From NCBI GenBank assembly GCA_017795025.1, contig CP051243.1:1550001-1614000 (forward strand): DNA of 64,000 bases. Direction: 5' to 3'. Source of the stretch: Flavobacteriales bacterium. GTDB lineage: Bacteria; Bacteroidota; Bacteroidia; Flavobacteriales; Schleiferiaceae. Position 1 is the first letter of the stretch. Each line of letters opens with the position of its first letter. Shown here in pieces: positions 23,228 to 30,929 of this stretch. A program made the translations under genes and the position numbers. The notes beneath the pieces are model-generated. The model was not told the origin of the DNA and made no database searches. It saw nothing but the letters and a program-made list of their open reading frames with translations.

Positions 23228-25741
23228 TTAGGTTTTTTTCCGCTTAAACCAGCTTCGTTTAGACTCTTCATCTTCACCGTAGTATGCGCTTCCATAACCA
23301 TAACCGTAGCCGTAGCCGTAGCCGTAACCGTATCCATAACCATAGCCATAACCGTAACCATAGCCATAACCTTGATTAACAGTAAAGTCATTAATCGTTA
23401 TTGCAACATTTCCTAAGGTTCTGTTTTCATAACGGTCGTTTATAAAACTAAGAAGCTGCTTATTAGTGTAACCTTGGCGAACCACGTAAAAACTGTAGTC
23501 CACCTTTTTCATAAGCTCAAAAGTGTCAGCAACCAATCCTACGGGAGGTGTATCAAACACGATATAATCAAACTCCTCATAGAGCTGTTCCACTAATTTG
23601 TCAAACTCCGGACTAAGAATTAACTCCGAAGGGTTTGGAGGAATTGGACCCGCTGAAATAATGTACAACTCATGAAATTTGGTTTTTTGTAAGGCATCCT
23701 TCATTTCCATTTGTCCAGAGAGGATGGAACTCACTCCAAAATCATTACTCAATCCAAAATCGTTGTAGATTTTCGGTTTTCTCAAATCCAGCCCTACTAG
23801 AACCGTTTTTTTACCAACCGCCGCCAAAATACTCGCCATGTTAATGGAAATGAATGTTTTACCTTCACCACCAATAGATGAAGTAAACAACATACTTTTT
23901 ATTTCTTTGTCTGGAAGGAGATAGGAAGAATTAGAACGTAAAGCTCTAAATGACTCGGAAATACTTGATTTTGGATATTCGGCTACTACTAGATTTGTGC
24001 TACGGTCGCTATGCCCAATTAAAGCAACAATAGGCATTTTAGTGATAGCTTCGACATCCTCTTTCGTACGCACCTTGTTATCAGTAAAGTACAACAACAA
24101 GATAATGCCAATTGGTAATGCCAAAGAGATGAAAATCGATGTGATAAAAATTGATTTACTATTGGGACTTACTGGTTTCCGCTCTAGTAAAGCCGGGTCA
24201 ATAACCTTTGAATCTGGTGTGTTTCCTGCTAAAACAATCTCCGTCTCAGCCTTTTTACGCATTAAGTAGAGATATAAGCTTTCAGTTATTTGAAACTTTC
24301 TTTGAATCCCTATGAGTTCTATTTCAGTTTTGGGAAGATCGCTGATTGCGCCTTCGAGTCTATTCCGATTACCCTTTAAAACCTTCAATTGGTAGTCTAA
24401 AGAAACATTATAGGATTCAATATTTTGCTCTAAGGTCTGACGAAGTTTTCTAATCTGAAAGTCTAAGGCCTGGATGGTAGGACTATTGTCTTTTTGGCTA
24501 AAGGCCAATGTGGTTCTTCTTGCAATTAGCGTGTTTAATTGCCCAACAATGTTAACTATAGACGAGTTTTCAATCGCTGTACCAACAGGTTCCAAATAAC
24601 CGTCCTCACCTAATTCTGTAAAACTAGTGTTCTTTAAGTAATCAAGATAATTCTCTTGGATTTCTAATTCGGAGATTTGCTTATCCAAGGTAAACACCTC
24701 TTCAAATAACCTAGTGCCTTTCTCTCCTAAGTTAACTGCCTGATTAACACTCTGGAATTGTTTAAGAACATCCTCAATCTTTGCCAAGGTATCTTTAAGG
24801 CTAACAAGCTCATTTGTTATAAACTCAATAGACTTACTAGAAGTTTTATTTTTAGCTTCTAGATCTAACAGCTGATACTGATGTATGAGCTCATTTACAT
24901 ATCTTTTTATCTTACTACCTTCACTTCCTCTAATGGAAATGTTAATTGCGGAGGAGCCTTCGGATGATGGTTCAACTTCAATACCTTTATGATAATTTGT
25001 AATGAGGCTTTCTTTAGTAGCCCAATTCACAATTACAGCCTGACCGACTTCAATTTTCCTATCATAATCCTTCGCCTTCACAATTTTAAAGCGACTGTAA
25101 TCAGTTTCGTACCACTGGCCCAATTTCAAATTCACTTCAAACTGTGCGTAATTTGATAATAGCTGGTCCATAACCACTTGCTCTATTTCTTCGGGACTCT
25201 CAACATTGAAATAGACCTCCTCGGGATTGGGATAAAGGATTTTGAATTTACCCTCCTCAATTTGAGTTATGGTGTAGGAACCAATGGTTTGTGTGTGGTT
25301 GGTATCATATTCAATTTTCCAATCTGGATTTGGGTAAATCTCAGATGTTCTAATACGACCTTCAGAAAAATAGGAAATCTCAAAATCAAGCTGCGAAAGA
25401 GTACGTTTCGCTAGAGACCTACTTTTCAATACAATAACCTCATTCTCAAAATCTAGACGAGGATTATAGTATCCGATGGTAGACATAAGCGACTCCATTC
25501 CACCTTTACCCGAAGAATCAACCATCAAGGTAGCATTTACTTCAAAGATTCGGGTTGAATATTTATTGATAAAATAGGCTAATACCACTCCAATAGTGAG
25601 GCTCACTACAATTAGTGGCCAATTGCCTAAAATCATAAAGAAAATTCGTCTAAAATCTATCGAGCCACCTTCTTCATTTTCTGCTGGCAAAGTCCCTGAG
25701 GGATAGCCGTAGCCGCTCTCAACATTTTTATCTTCTTTCAT
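23228..25741 (-). CDS. Polysaccharide chain-length regulator and tyrosine autokinase, Wzc-like
   Basis: An 837-residue inner-membrane BY-kinase. After a cytosolic N-terminus a first membrane helix (ILGNWPLIVVSLTIGVVLAY, near residues 38-60) leads into a Wzz-type periplasmic domain with a coiled-coil stretch (about 290-460). A second helix follows near 530-555 (SIFITSIFISLALPIGIILL). The cytosolic kinase has Walker A SSIGGEGKT (621-629), Walker A' VLVGLDLRKP and Walker B YIVFDTPPVGLVAD. The C-terminal tyrosine cluster is extreme: thirteen Gly-Tyr dipeptides in a row (791-816), then SAYYGEDEES and a basic end. It would control polymer length and export together with the Wza protein two bases away, switching by autophosphorylation of the tail. 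Confidence 0.93.
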   Translation of the reverse strand: MKEDKNVESGYGYPSGTLPAENEEGGSIDFRRIFFMILGNWPLIVVSLTIGVVLAYFINKYSTRIFEVNATLMVDSSGKGGMESLMSTIGYYNPRLDFENEVIVLKSRSLAKRTLSQLDFEISYFSEGRIRTSEIYPNPDWKIEYDTNHTQTIGSYTITQIEEGKFKILYPNPEEVYFNVESPEEIEQVVMDQLLSNYAQFEVNLKLGQWYETDYSRFKIVKAKDYDRKIEVGQAVIVNWATKESLITNYHKGIEVEPSSEGSSAINISIRGSEGSKIKRYVNELIHQYQLLDLEAKNKTSSKSIEFITNELVSLKDTLAKIEDVLKQFQSVNQAVNLGEKGTRLFEEVFTLDKQISELEIQENYLDYLKNTSFTELGEDGYLEPVGTAIENSSIVNIVGQLNTLIARRTTLAFSQKDNSPTIQALDFQIRKLRQTLEQNIESYNVSLDYQLKVLKGNRNRLEGAISDLPKTEIELIGIQRKFQITESLYLYLMRKKAETEIVLAGNTPDSKVIDPALLERKPVSPNSKSIFITSIFISLALPIGIILLLYFTDNKVRTKEDVEAITKMPIVALIGHSDRSTNLVVAEYPKSSISESFRALRSNSSYLLPDKEIKSMLFTSSIGGEGKTFISINMASILAAVGKKTVLVGLDLRKPKIYNDFGLSNDFGVSSILSGQMEMKDALQKTKFHELYIISAGPIPPNPSELILSPEFDKLVEQLYEEFDYIVFDTPPVGLVADTFELMKKVDYSFYVVRQGYTNKQLLSFINDRYENRTLGNVAITINDFTVNQGYGYGYGYGYGYGYGYGYGYGYGYGYGSAYYGEDEESKRSWFKRKKT
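23294..23371 (-). repeat. Hexanucleotide tandem repeat encoding 13 Gly-Tyr units
   Basis: Thirteen tandem copies of GGNTAY on the coding strand, each Gly-Tyr, at the 3' end of the tyrosine kinase gene. Third positions vary (GGT, GGC, GGA; TAT, TAC), with three identical GGCTAC units in a row. Gain or loss of one unit would keep the frame and change only the number of tyrosines. Confidence 0.95.
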
Positions 25742-25742
25742 C

Positions 25743-26537
25743 TTAATTGTTCAAGCTATTTATTGCAATAATCAGGGTGATAGTAGAGGCAACTACTGAT
25801 AAGGCCTGAGTGAATGTTTGAAAACCAGTAGTGCCGATTCCAAGTGATTTTTGGGGTAAAGGCTGTACATTTATGACATCATTTGGATAGATGAAGTAAT
25901 TCGGGTTATTAATTACTTTAGAGTCTGTTAAGTCCAAATAGAATGATTTAGCTCCTTCATTTGTTTGCCTTACAATCATTACCCGCTGTCTATCTCCAAC
26001 TGTCGTTATATCGCCAGCCAAAGCCAAAGCCTCAAAAATATTGGCCTGATTTTGATAAATTACATACTTGCCTGGGTTATTTACTTCGCCTACCACTGAG
26101 TATCGGATACCTGCTAATTGTACGCTAACAAAAACTGCCTCCTCATCAAAATATTCGCTTAACCCATCTTCAATTAAACTTTCAATTTCTGAAATCTCCT
26201 TATACAAAACAGAAATAGATCCTAGAACAGGCAATTCTATATTACCATCTAATCCAACCGAATAACCTTGCAAATAGAATAAAATATCTCCTGCCTGTAA
26301 ACCTGACTGCTGATTAACATCATTGCGATTGAAGAGTTGACTGGTTTCAAGGTCGTATGAGCGAATGGTAATACTAAGAATGTCATTTGGCTGCACCTTG
26401 TAATTGGTCCTTTGCAAGTTATACTGTGAGCCTGTATCCTCGGACTCCTGTAAATAAGTCAATCTCTTGGTTGGAACGCAGCCACTTAAAAAAGCTAGGA
26501 CGCATATTGAGATTGCTATCTTTCTTATCATCACCAT
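25743..26537 (-). CDS. Polysaccharide export outer-membrane lipoprotein, Wza-like
   Basis: A 264-residue lipoprotein. The signal peptide ends in the lipobox LSGC with Cys20 as the lipidated residue. The poly-export domain follows (YKVQPNDILSITIRSYDLET), then an SLBB-type domain (YSVVGEVNNPGKYVIYQNQA), and a C-terminal hydrophobic helix (QALSVVASTITLIIAINSL) that would sit in the outer membrane as in the Wza octamer. It lies one base before the Wzc gene, making the usual export pair. Two starts are possible, ATG at 26537 or 26531. A -7 element just upstream supports transcription beginning a few bases before the first. Confidence 0.93.
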   Translation of the reverse strand: MVMIRKIAISICVLAFLSGCVPTKRLTYLQESEDTGSQYNLQRTNYKVQPNDILSITIRSYDLETSQLFNRNDVNQQSGLQAGDILFYLQGYSVGLDGNIELPVLGSISVLYKEISEIESLIEDGLSEYFDEEAVFVSVQLAGIRYSVVGEVNNPGKYVIYQNQANIFEALALAGDITTVGDRQRVMIVRQTNEGAKSFYLDLTDSKVINNPNYFIYPNDVINVQPLPQKSLGIGTTGFQTFTQALSVVASTITLIIAINSLNN

Positions 26538-27875: not shown

Positions 27876-28451
27876 CTAATTTTTACCATTATATGGTTCA
27901 TTATAAACGGAAGCGTCCCTTAGTCGTCCTACTGATTTTAAATAAAGGAATAGGAGCTTTAGGTCTAGAGCCAAACTAAGATGATCCACATAAAATATAT
28001 CGTATTGCAAGCGATGTCGCCAACTTATTCGAGTAGCCCCTTTCAATTGAGCTAAACCAATTATACCTGGACGACAATCATGTCTCTTCAATTGCTCCGA
28101 ATTATACAAATTAAGATATTCAGGTAATAACGGTCGGGGACCTATCCACGACATTTTGCCTAGTAAAATTAAAAGAAGTTGTGGCATTTCGTCTAGCCCC
28201 AATGATCTTATGAGAACAAAATCCTTCGGTAAGTTAATAGGCCCCTTGAAATGCTTTTGAGAAGGCATAGTTCTCAATTTATAGATGATAAATTCTTTTG
28301 AGTTTAAACCTATTCTTTTTTGAAGGAAAAAAGGGGACTCCTTTAGCCTTAGGGTAATGTAAAAAGACACGGGTATTAATAAAGCTAGAAACACAGGAAA
28401 CAATAAGATGGCCAATGCTATATCTACTAAACGCTTTATTCTTTGATACAT
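27876..28451 (-). CDS. Initiating sugar-phosphate transferase, PglC-like
   Basis: A 191-residue bacterial sugar transferase of the small monotopic type. The N-terminal membrane helix is LVDIALAILLFPVFLALLIP, followed by PFFLQKRIGLNSKEFIIYKL, the catalytic-region motif GLDEMPQLLLILLGKMSWIG, PRPLLPEYLNLYN and RPGIIGLAQLKGAT. It moves a phospho-sugar from a UDP-sugar to undecaprenyl phosphate, the first step of repeat-unit assembly. The length and neighbour (PglE-like) match PglC rather than the long WbaP/WcaJ form. The catalytic Asp-Glu pair is seen as DE in LDEMPQ. The gene begins 20 bases beyond a strong bidirectional hairpin and no clear promoter is visible in that gap. Confidence 0.9.
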   Translation of the reverse strand: MYQRIKRLVDIALAILLFPVFLALLIPVSFYITLRLKESPFFLQKRIGLNSKEFIIYKLRTMPSQKHFKGPINLPKDFVLIRSLGLDEMPQLLLILLGKMSWIGPRPLLPEYLNLYNSEQLKRHDCRPGIIGLAQLKGATRISWRHRLQYDIFYVDHLSLALDLKLLFLYLKSVGRLRDASVYNEPYNGKN

Positions 28452-28471
28452 AGGGAATACAATATAAAAAA

Positions 28472-28496
28472 GGCCAATGAGAAAATCCCACTGGCC
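28472..28496. terminator. Bidirectional intrinsic terminator
   Basis: Arms GGCCAATGAG and TCCCACTGGCC form an imperfect stem of about ten pairs with A-rich sequence before and a T-run after, in both directions. On the minus strand it lies 24 bases past the stop of the miniprotein gene at 28521 and would end the T9SS-protein transcript before the PglC-like gene. Confidence 0.8.
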
Positions 28497-28520
28497 TTTT
28501 TTCTTTATATCTAAACCTAA

Positions 28521-28703
28521 TTATTCTTCTTTCGACTTTTGATTTTGGATTGCCTTATATCCCACCGCTGCACCTGCAGCAGCAAGCCATACCAAACCTG
28601 GGATTGGAGCGGGTGCCCCTCCAGGGTTACCTTCAGATGGTTGAGCAGATAAGCTTAAACCGCCAAGAATCACAATCGAGAATGCTACAATATACTTTTT
28701 CAT
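28521..28703 (-). CDS. Miniprotein with PID-CTERM-like C-terminal sorting signal
   Basis: A 60-residue protein: signal peptide (MKKYIVAFSIVILGGLSLSA, cleavage near AQ), a short Pro/Gly linker (PSEGNPGGAPAP), then IPGLVWLAAAGAAVGYKAIQ and a charged end NQKSKEE. This tripartite end resembles the PID-CTERM sorting signal of Flavobacteriia (motif PIDGG, hydrophobic helix, basic tail), but reads PIPG in place of PIDGG. Almost nothing remains besides the two targeting signals, so the mature peptide may be a dozen or so residues. It lies 12 bases after the large T9SS cargo gene and shares its transcript. A sorting or processing partner is not in the window. Function is unknown. Confidence 0.7.
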   Translation of the reverse strand: MKKYIVAFSIVILGGLSLSAQPSEGNPGGAPAPIPGLVWLAAAGAAVGYKAIQNQKSKEE

Positions 28704-28715
28704 CTTAATGCTATT

Positions 28716-30929
28716 TTACTTAATCAACTTTTGGTTAAGGACAGGCGAACCATTGGAGAACACTTTTACGATATAAATACCTCTGGCAAAGGCATCAGTA
28801 TTGATGCTCTCCCTTTGCGTATTATCATAATCTCCTTGCCAAACTAATTGGCCAGCCTGACTAATAATTTGCACTTCTACATTTGGCATTTCATTAGCCA
28901 ATTCGATATTGAAAGCGTCAGCAGAACGGTAAGCGTAATTGTTGTTGCTTTCAAACTCCTCTTGACCTACACCTGATTGGTAAAGATGAACGATAAACCG
29001 TTCAGGGCTATTGGTTGAGACGTGTGAAAACTGGTAATCACCGGCAACCAAGTCAACTCTAGAACCGGTCACTAAATCTTCTAATTCTACCGACCAAGAA
29101 GCAGGAATACGTAAGTCATTAATACTAATAGTGTACGATTGATCTATGTCGCAAGTAAATGACATTGGCACTGACTTATTGGTAAAGCTGCTATTAAGCT
29201 TATTCACAAAGAACTCATCTCCATTAGCCGAAGTAGTGTATAAATTTGGATAAGCACTGGCATTCATTCGCTTTTCCGCGTCGGCACCTGCGTCAATGCC
29301 ATCCGTGTATTGGGTATCAAAAGCCAATAAGGTTTCGTCACTAGTTCCATCGCTAGCAGCAACACCCAATTTTAATACTTGAACGGTACCAGCCGATTTA
29401 TTCTGAGCCGGATTAGAGGCCACCGAACGATCGCCATTATCTAATGCTAAATTGATACTTCCTGATCCCGTATTCTGAACGAAAAAGGCTTGCATGGGCG
29501 CAATCAAAGTGGTTCCTGAGTTCAATGCACTATTGGCTCCGGCATCGTAACCAATCCATTGGCTGCCGTTGTATACATAATAAGTAGAGGTAAGGTCAGT
29601 TCCGTTAGCATCGTGGTAAGCATCCCAGTCGATAGCTGAAGGATAGGGATTGGTAACCAAGTTCCAACCCGAATTACTATTGTCTAAGGAAATATTAATC
29701 GCACCATCGTTAAAACCACTTCCGCTAGCGGTTAAGGTAACGGGTAAGGTTCCGAAAGTAGAACCATCGCCTAAGTAAATGGTAAAACCATTATTTACCG
29801 TGCTAAATGAAGTGTTGGGAACTTTAGTCCAAGTACCCTCCCCATTATTAGCGGTAGCGGGATCATAATAGTAGAGGTTAACATTGGCTGCCGTTCCGGT
29901 ATTAATGGTTCCACTAGATACTGATAAATCAGCAACGGTACCACCGCTTAAGGGTGAACCAAAGTAGAACCAACGTGCCGCGCCAGTAAAGGTGCGTTGT
30001 ACGGTAAAGGTTCCAGCGCCAGAAGAGGAATTGGCTAAAACTTGGGCATAACCGGTAGCATCCGACTGCAAGTTTAGCGTACCCGCATTTTCTAAGGCTC
30101 CCGAAATAGTTAAATCCGTTCCCGCTGCAACATTAACGGTACCACCACTTTCAATATCTAAAAATGGAATGGTAGCATCCGCCGTAGCATTAGTACTAGA
30201 ACCATTGGGAATATTATACTTACTCGTTTTGGTGAAGTTGCCAAAGTACATGTTTCGGTTACCATTGTTATCATTCTGGTTCCCAATGTAGATATGCAAT
30301 TCATCAATATCACTCGAAGAGTTAATGGTGGTGGTGTAAGTCGCATCCGCACCATTCCGAGGCGTCATTGAGAAACTGTAGGCGCTAGAACTGGTGCGTT
30401 CAATAGTCACCAACATAGCATCAGTTCCATAGGTAGAAAGAGCCGTGCCGTTCGTAGTCGTAATTGTTGCCGAACCACCAATATTCACATTGAATATGGT
30501 TACTCCACCATCACGTAAATCAAAACCTTTAGCACCTGTATTCGCATCCCAGTTTACAGCCCAGTAGAAGGTAAACTTATCACCTACACGTAATCCGTCA
30601 GTTATTGGACGGACTGCATTCAAATAATTCGCCCCTGTTGCAAAAAATCCAAATGCGGTAGTTCCGATTCCAGTTGTACCCATACCGTTGTTGGACGGAT
30701 CCCCAATAAAGCTTCCGGTGCTTCCACCATAGGTAATACTCCAGTTTCCAAAACCTGATCCTCCAGAAGAACCATTGGCAAGCGTTCCACCATAAGAAGA
30801 GCCATCATCTGATCCAACGGTAAACTCATCTGTACCCAGCTGCCCGAAAACCAAGGCAGGCGTCAGAAGAATTCCCAGCGACAAGGCTAGTTGTTTAAAC
30901 GTCGTGTACTTTTTCATCATACCATTCAT
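28716..30929 (-). CDS. Large T9SS-secreted surface protein
   Basis: A 737-residue secreted protein. The signal peptide runs to LLTPALVFGQ; ATGs at 30929, 30920 and 30917 are all possible starts, and the latter two give the more ordinary MMKKYTTFKQ. The mature part is Gly/Ser/Thr/Asn-rich: a lectin-like opening (GNWSITYGGSTGSFIG), a middle repeat-poor region with ALENAGTLNLQSDATGYAQV and TVQRTFTGAARWFYFGSPLS, and a C-terminal type A sorting domain (VEVQIISQAGQLVWQGDYDN to GIYIVKVFSNGSPVLNQKLI). That domain sends cargo through the type IX secretion system. The ligand or role is unknown. It shares an operon with the 60-residue CTERM-like protein. Confidence 0.87.
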   Translation of the reverse strand: MNGMMKKYTTFKQLALSLGILLTPALVFGQLGTDEFTVGSDDGSSYGGTLANGSSGGSGFGNWSITYGGSTGSFIGDPSNNGMGTTGIGTTAFGFFATGANYLNAVRPITDGLRVGDKFTFYWAVNWDANTGAKGFDLRDGGVTIFNVNIGGSATITTTNGTALSTYGTDAMLVTIERTSSSAYSFSMTPRNGADATYTTTINSSSDIDELHIYIGNQNDNNGNRNMYFGNFTKTSKYNIPNGSSTNATADATIPFLDIESGGTVNVAAGTDLTISGALENAGTLNLQSDATGYAQVLANSSSGAGTFTVQRTFTGAARWFYFGSPLSGGTVADLSVSSGTINTGTAANVNLYYYDPATANNGEGTWTKVPNTSFSTVNNGFTIYLGDGSTFGTLPVTLTASGSGFNDGAINISLDNSNSGWNLVTNPYPSAIDWDAYHDANGTDLTSTYYVYNGSQWIGYDAGANSALNSGTTLIAPMQAFFVQNTGSGSINLALDNGDRSVASNPAQNKSAGTVQVLKLGVAASDGTSDETLLAFDTQYTDGIDAGADAEKRMNASAYPNLYTTSANGDEFFVNKLNSSFTNKSVPMSFTCDIDQSYTISINDLRIPASWSVELEDLVTGSRVDLVAGDYQFSHVSTNSPERFIVHLYQSGVGQEEFESNNNYAYRSADAFNIELANEMPNVEVQIISQAGQLVWQGDYDNTQRESINTDAFARGIYIVKVFSNGSPVLNQKLIK

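Follow-up and report, generated by a model that had tools for sequence, protein, structure and literature searches.

A 60-residue CTERM-type mini-protein encoded behind a RemA/RemZ-related T9SS cargo suggests cooperation of two protein-sorting systems in Bacteroidia

Described sorting systems and the mini-cargo locus

Strains of Flavobacterium johnsoniae that lack xrtF or Fjoh_1449 form no zorbs, make far less biofilm and are poorer colonisers, deletions of porV, porU and sprA act in the same way, and the question of XrtF substrates was deferred to later work (PMC10936215). RemA and RemZ, gliding adhesins of the same organism, are T9SS substrates. The PEP-CTERM/exosortase A (EpsH) system combines a signal of motif, helix and basic tail with a Cys-Arg-His sortase and an association with glycan loci, and its signal is as a rule found at the end of a larger exported protein. 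GlyGly-CTERM/rhombosortase likewise joins a sorting signal to an outer-membrane secretion system, T2SS, and the signal is carried by one protein that is itself secreted (PMC7468200). NCBIfam models are already known for PID-CTERM (NF046080), exosortase X (XrtX, NF046081) and the XrtX-associated protein (NF046082). In the open-access literature searched, we found no paper that names PID-CTERM or XrtX and none that links exosortases with T9SS Rem-type adhesins.

The locus studied here lies in a window of 64,000 nucleotides, the whole stretch of DNA analysed; the features given below with coordinates are on the minus strand. The mini gene (28521-28703) encodes a product of 60 residues, MKKYIVAFSIVILGGLSLSAQPSEGNPGGAPAPIPGLVWLAAAGAAVGYKAIQNQKSKEE, consisting of a signal peptide (residues 1 to about 20, assigned by eye), 12-13 Pro/Gly-rich residues, the motif PIPG, a hydrophobic helix and a Lys/Glu tail. 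Its start is separated by 12 bp from the stop codon of the gene upstream (28716-30929), which encodes a 737-residue T9SS type A cargo recognized by domain matches. The T9SS type A C-terminal sorting domain of the cargo (residues 670-736; 28719-28920) scores above the cut-offs of both TIGR04183 (27.6 bits, cut-off 23, 2.1e-6) and PF18962 (31.2 bits, cut-off 27, 2.8e-7). The mini gene is followed on its 3' side by an intrinsic terminator with a 17-pair stem (28466-28502). The next gene after the terminator encodes the sugar-phosphate transferase of a glycan locus (27876-28451; bacterial sugar transferase, PF02397, 8.6e-41), and beyond it are genes for an aminotransferase, a Wza-type polysaccharide export lipoprotein (25743-26537) and a Wzc-type chain-length/tyrosine kinase with a GYGYGY tail (23228-25741), the last two assigned from sequence features only. 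The arrangement put forward in the original prediction, a 60-residue protein 12 bp behind a T9SS cargo, before a terminator and beside a sugar transferase, is thus confirmed by the sequence together with the PF18962, TIGR04183 and PF02397 matches. Wzc-type kinases with a long GYGYGY tail also stand divergently beside mini-exosortase pairs at seven loci elsewhere.

Unlike the larger proteins that PEP-CTERM signals usually end, the mini-protein consists of little besides signals, and its partner is a T9SS protein. The arrangement also differs from GlyGly-CTERM, since here the CTERM signal is on one protein and the secretion tail on another. PID-CTERM/XrtX shares its small-signal layout, and many minis adjoin XrtX genes. 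The original prediction noted a likeness to PID-CTERM. PID-type homologues in relatives pass the NF046080 cut-off (36.8 bits, cut-off 26), whereas the PIPG form in the window reaches only 7.1 bits and so does not count as a formal match to PID-CTERM. A paralogue in the same genome scores 23.2 bits. The exosortase of the window genome in this comparison is XrtF and not XrtX.

Conservation of the mini gene and its pairing with T9SS cargos

Two congeners carry orthologues of the mini 12 bp behind orthologous cargo genes, and between the mini orthologues of the two congeners dS is 0.77 and dN 0.075 (dN/dS ∼0.1). Because the orthologues keep the same spacing, dN/dS is low and three further copies follow cargo genes in the source genome, the mini is more than a chance reading frame; it is a real gene, conserved and subject to purifying selection. 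Homologues (E ≤ 0.01) occur in 28 of 59 related genomes. A 30-row alignment shows little or no variation in the A-Q-P at the end of the signal peptide, in the prolines that precede the motif and in small helix residues, and a P-x-[PDG]-G motif is conserved before the helix. The sequence and this alignment show the layout of a CTERM substrate, with a signal peptide followed by motif, hydrophobic helix and charged tail. The mature part before the motif has a median length of about 11 residues.

A family profile search gave six mini matches in the source genome, five of which could be placed. The window mini and three others (4 of the 5 placed copies) lie 12, 20, 3 and 11 bp behind T9SS-type genes, and the fifth is a divergent PLGF type beside a receiver-domain gene. 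Cargos paired with a mini in this genome have T9SS tails that are weak in comparison with most tails there: three score 34, 26 and 26 bits, and the fourth is not detected at E ≤ 0.01. The divergent PLGF/PIGF mini (C1:3317587-3317748) lies between the receiver-domain gene and a gene of about 125 codons near a histidine kinase, and congeners show a similar context at three loci. Perhaps the PLGF/PIGF minis form a signalling-linked subfamily.

To survey the pairing more widely we used 152 distinct minis, gathered by mini similarity alone and blind to neighbours, 150 of them at 30 bits or more. A same-strand gene within 300 bp upstream was present for 113 minis, and 82 of these 113 genes have a T9SS type A tail by TIGR04183. 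By a tail model that we built locally, a T9SS cargo directly precedes 88 of 150 minis at a median gap of 29 bp. An exosortase gene adjoins 32/150, and at 12/150 loci cargo, mini and exosortase stand in a row; 42/150 minis, some of them at contig ends, have neither neighbour. Lack of conservation of the mini, or restriction of the pairing to a single genome, had been set beforehand as a refutation; the mini is instead conserved, and the pairing recurs across the class Bacteroidia, in the 88 of 150 minis given above. A separate scan of named genomes was queried with one exosortase-linked mini of the CWPPPC type, the 30-row alignment being too poor in conserved stretches, and 16 of the 20 minis found there adjoin an exosortase gene.

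T9SS cargo genes are numerous (124 matches in the source genome alone), and small genes might drift to the ends of surface-protein operons and hitch-hike there with no shared function. Recurrence of the pairing over dozens of families, the purifying selection on the mini and the specificity for one cargo module within a single genome, described below, speak against this explanation and make it extremely improbable. Chance or a local accident was rejected on the recurrence and the within-genome specificity.

Co-occurrence of minis with exosortases

Among 247 near-complete Bacteroidia genomes, with mini presence called at E ≤ 1e-3, 121 have both a mini and an exosortase, 2 a mini only, 34 an exosortase only and 90 neither (Fisher p = 7e-36). 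Members of one family do not count as independent genomes, and a test with one genome for each of the 71 families, itself a partial correction, gave p = 1e-11. T9SS type A tails are present in 242 of the 247 genomes, so the presence of T9SS cannot explain the distribution of the mini, which tracks the exosortase and not T9SS. The possibility that the mini is a T9SS-only lineage marker was rejected on the same count. An exosortase therefore accompanies the mini in 121 of 123 mini-bearing genomes, and the source genome has XrtF, in line with the co-occurrence that the original prediction had proposed to look for. The claim that the mini ends in an exosortase-kind signal is likewise supported by this co-occurrence and by the direct adjacency of the two genes at the 32 loci. 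We consider it very probable that the mini is an exosortase substrate.

The short gaps between cargo and mini, and the co-transcription of a mini with one cargo, would also suit an uncut mini acting as a small inner-membrane protein that helps to make, hold or check the T9SS cargo before export, its CTERM likeness being that of any single-pass tail. Such a role does not predict the nearly strict co-occurrence with exosortases and the adjacency to their genes, nor the conservation of P-x-[PDG]-G ahead of the helix, and a periplasmic part of about 11 residues is very short for a holdase. We judge it improbable.

Two exosortases are encoded in the source genome, XrtF and XrtK. XrtF (TIGR04128, 124.8 bits, cut-off 90) is accompanied in the genome by the XrtF-associated membrane protein (TIGR04127, 52.1 bits, cut-off 35), so that the source genome has the same exosortase family and partner protein as the XrtF/Fjoh_1448-1449 system of F. 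johnsoniae. The xrtF gene is about 76 kb from the mini-cargo pair. Its product keeps Cys99, Arg140 and His160; across the exosortases compared, the catalytic Cys and Arg are present in 39/39 and the His in 35/39. XrtK directly adjoins a 933-residue MSEP-CTERM protein (742 bits; the pair at C1:222996-226320, L205:4996-8320). XrtK/MSEP-CTERM is also a dedicated exosortase-substrate pair, but its substrate is this large protein next to its sortase, and no T9SS link was seen for it. As XrtK has a target of its own, it is disfavoured as the sortase of the minis, and XrtF is left by elimination as their candidate sortase.

The Rem-like module and a proposed two-protein sorting system

The N-terminal parts of the mini-paired cargos differ, but many share a region corresponding to residues ∼255-652 of the window cargo (∼398 residues; 28974-30167, minus strand), situated just before the T9SS tail. 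A profile built from an alignment of 21 of these modules matched no family in Pfam or NCBIfam. It matched RemZ (PDB 8gl8 chain D, residues 609-1023) at E = 9e-55 and RemA (PDB 8gl6 chain D, residues 940-1345) at E = 2e-49. The match to the Rem proteins needs the profile; single-sequence PDB searches with the window cargo and one further paired cargo returned nothing. A Pfam search of the window cargo gave no lectin domain, and structure prediction of module plus tail for seven sequences was of low confidence (pLDDT 62.9). By profile comparison the window cargo belongs to a RemA/RemZ-like module family, with an N-terminal region that differs from those of RemA and RemZ. What is new here is this module of about 400 residues, common to paired cargos, without a Pfam or NCBIfam family and, as judged from profiles, related to RemZ and RemA.

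The profile was seeded with mini-paired cargos, and counts on paired cargos lean towards it for that reason; with this bias, the module is found in 83 of the 88 T9SS cargos that precede minis, some of which were seeds. Among same-strand neighbours of minis that were not seeds, 62/92 match. Iteration restricted to the cargos leads to saturation, probably from biased composition, and we therefore draw our conclusions from whole-genome searches with the module profile. In the source genome the module occurs in only 7 proteins, as against about 124 T9SS-tail matches, and the best four of the seven are exactly the four mini-paired cargos (random-draw probability 3.6e-6). Across the 247 genomes, module and exosortase are both present in 142, the module alone in 11, the exosortase alone in 13 and neither in 81 (p = 1.6e-38; p = 3e-12 with one genome per family). 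Across the class, this adhesin module, which has no entry in Pfam or NCBIfam, thus follows the exosortase. We regard a functional link between the mini and the Rem-type cargo as highly likely. A mini stands directly behind only about 10 of the 36 top module-protein matches; several adhesins may therefore share one set of minis, or only some adhesins may need one.

In F. johnsoniae UW101 five module proteins cluster together. No mini is encoded near this RemA/RemZ cluster, and none was found in the ∼440 kb searched (the RemA cluster, the region where the EPS cluster would be expected and the XrtF region). The minis fit the gap left by the missing XrtF substrates, as candidates put forward from sequence. 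They are candidate substrates of Bacteroidota exosortases that travel with a defined class of RemA/RemZ-related T9SS adhesins. What XrtF-type exosortases cut, and why their mutants resemble T9SS mutants, is in this way reduced to a question about two small genes.

The pairing of mini and cargo suggests that two protein-sorting systems cooperate at the cell surface. In the original prediction the pair was read as a possible two-part surface attachment system. We propose that the mini crosses the inner membrane by Sec, with its signal peptide removed before Gln21, and that the C-terminal helix would then hold it in the membrane with PIPG at the periplasmic face. XrtF, through Cys99, Arg140 and His160, would cut near PIPG, and the resulting Pro/Gly-rich peptide of about 12-16 residues may be transferred to an acceptor that is a lipid or a glycan. 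In this conjugated form it would serve the co-transcribed Rem-type adhesin exported by T9SS, most likely by docking or retaining it at the cell surface or on polysaccharide. We give this reading as a whole, in which the mini is a dedicated XrtF substrate whose conjugated peptide serves or docks a Rem-type adhesin, a probability of about 0.5. What computation has shown is that the gene exists and is conserved, how the operon is laid out, that the mini co-occurs with exosortase, that XrtK has a separate target and that the cargos share a module. The docking step taken by itself is tentative, with even odds at best. We give less than even odds to a general two-protein sorting scheme, in which the exosortase makes cargo-specific conjugated peptides from signal-only minis. 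Each such peptide would capture or license the Rem-type T9SS adhesin that is its partner, either at the surface or within the matrix. If true, this scheme would be the first functional bridge between exosortases and T9SS.

The position of the window pair in a glycan locus also fits a different role, in which the mini, as an exosortase substrate, would act in the assembly or export of polysaccharide (for instance as a peptide attached to EPS) and the Rem-type adhesins would be linked to it indirectly by binding EPS. Wzc-type kinases are often found beside mini-exosortase pairs, PEP-CTERM/EpsH systems have a link with EPS loci (PMC1569441), and RemA is termed a cell-surface lectin, in the title of a reference cited in PMC10994853. 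Most minis, however, are directly behind one adhesin gene and not in EPS loci, and different adhesins of one genome each have their own mini, which suggests a cargo-specific service; we hold the polysaccharide role to be unlikely, with some weight left to it.

A second mini of the source genome is flanked by two module proteins, and the downstream one, with a Rem-like module, is encoded at C1:1265435-1269505 (L053:3436-7506). In 32 of 150 minis a Cys-Trp-Pro-Pro-Pro-Cys-like motif stands just before PIDG, and 20 of these 32 adjoin an exosortase gene. This motif suggests a putative disulfide loop beside the expected cut site.
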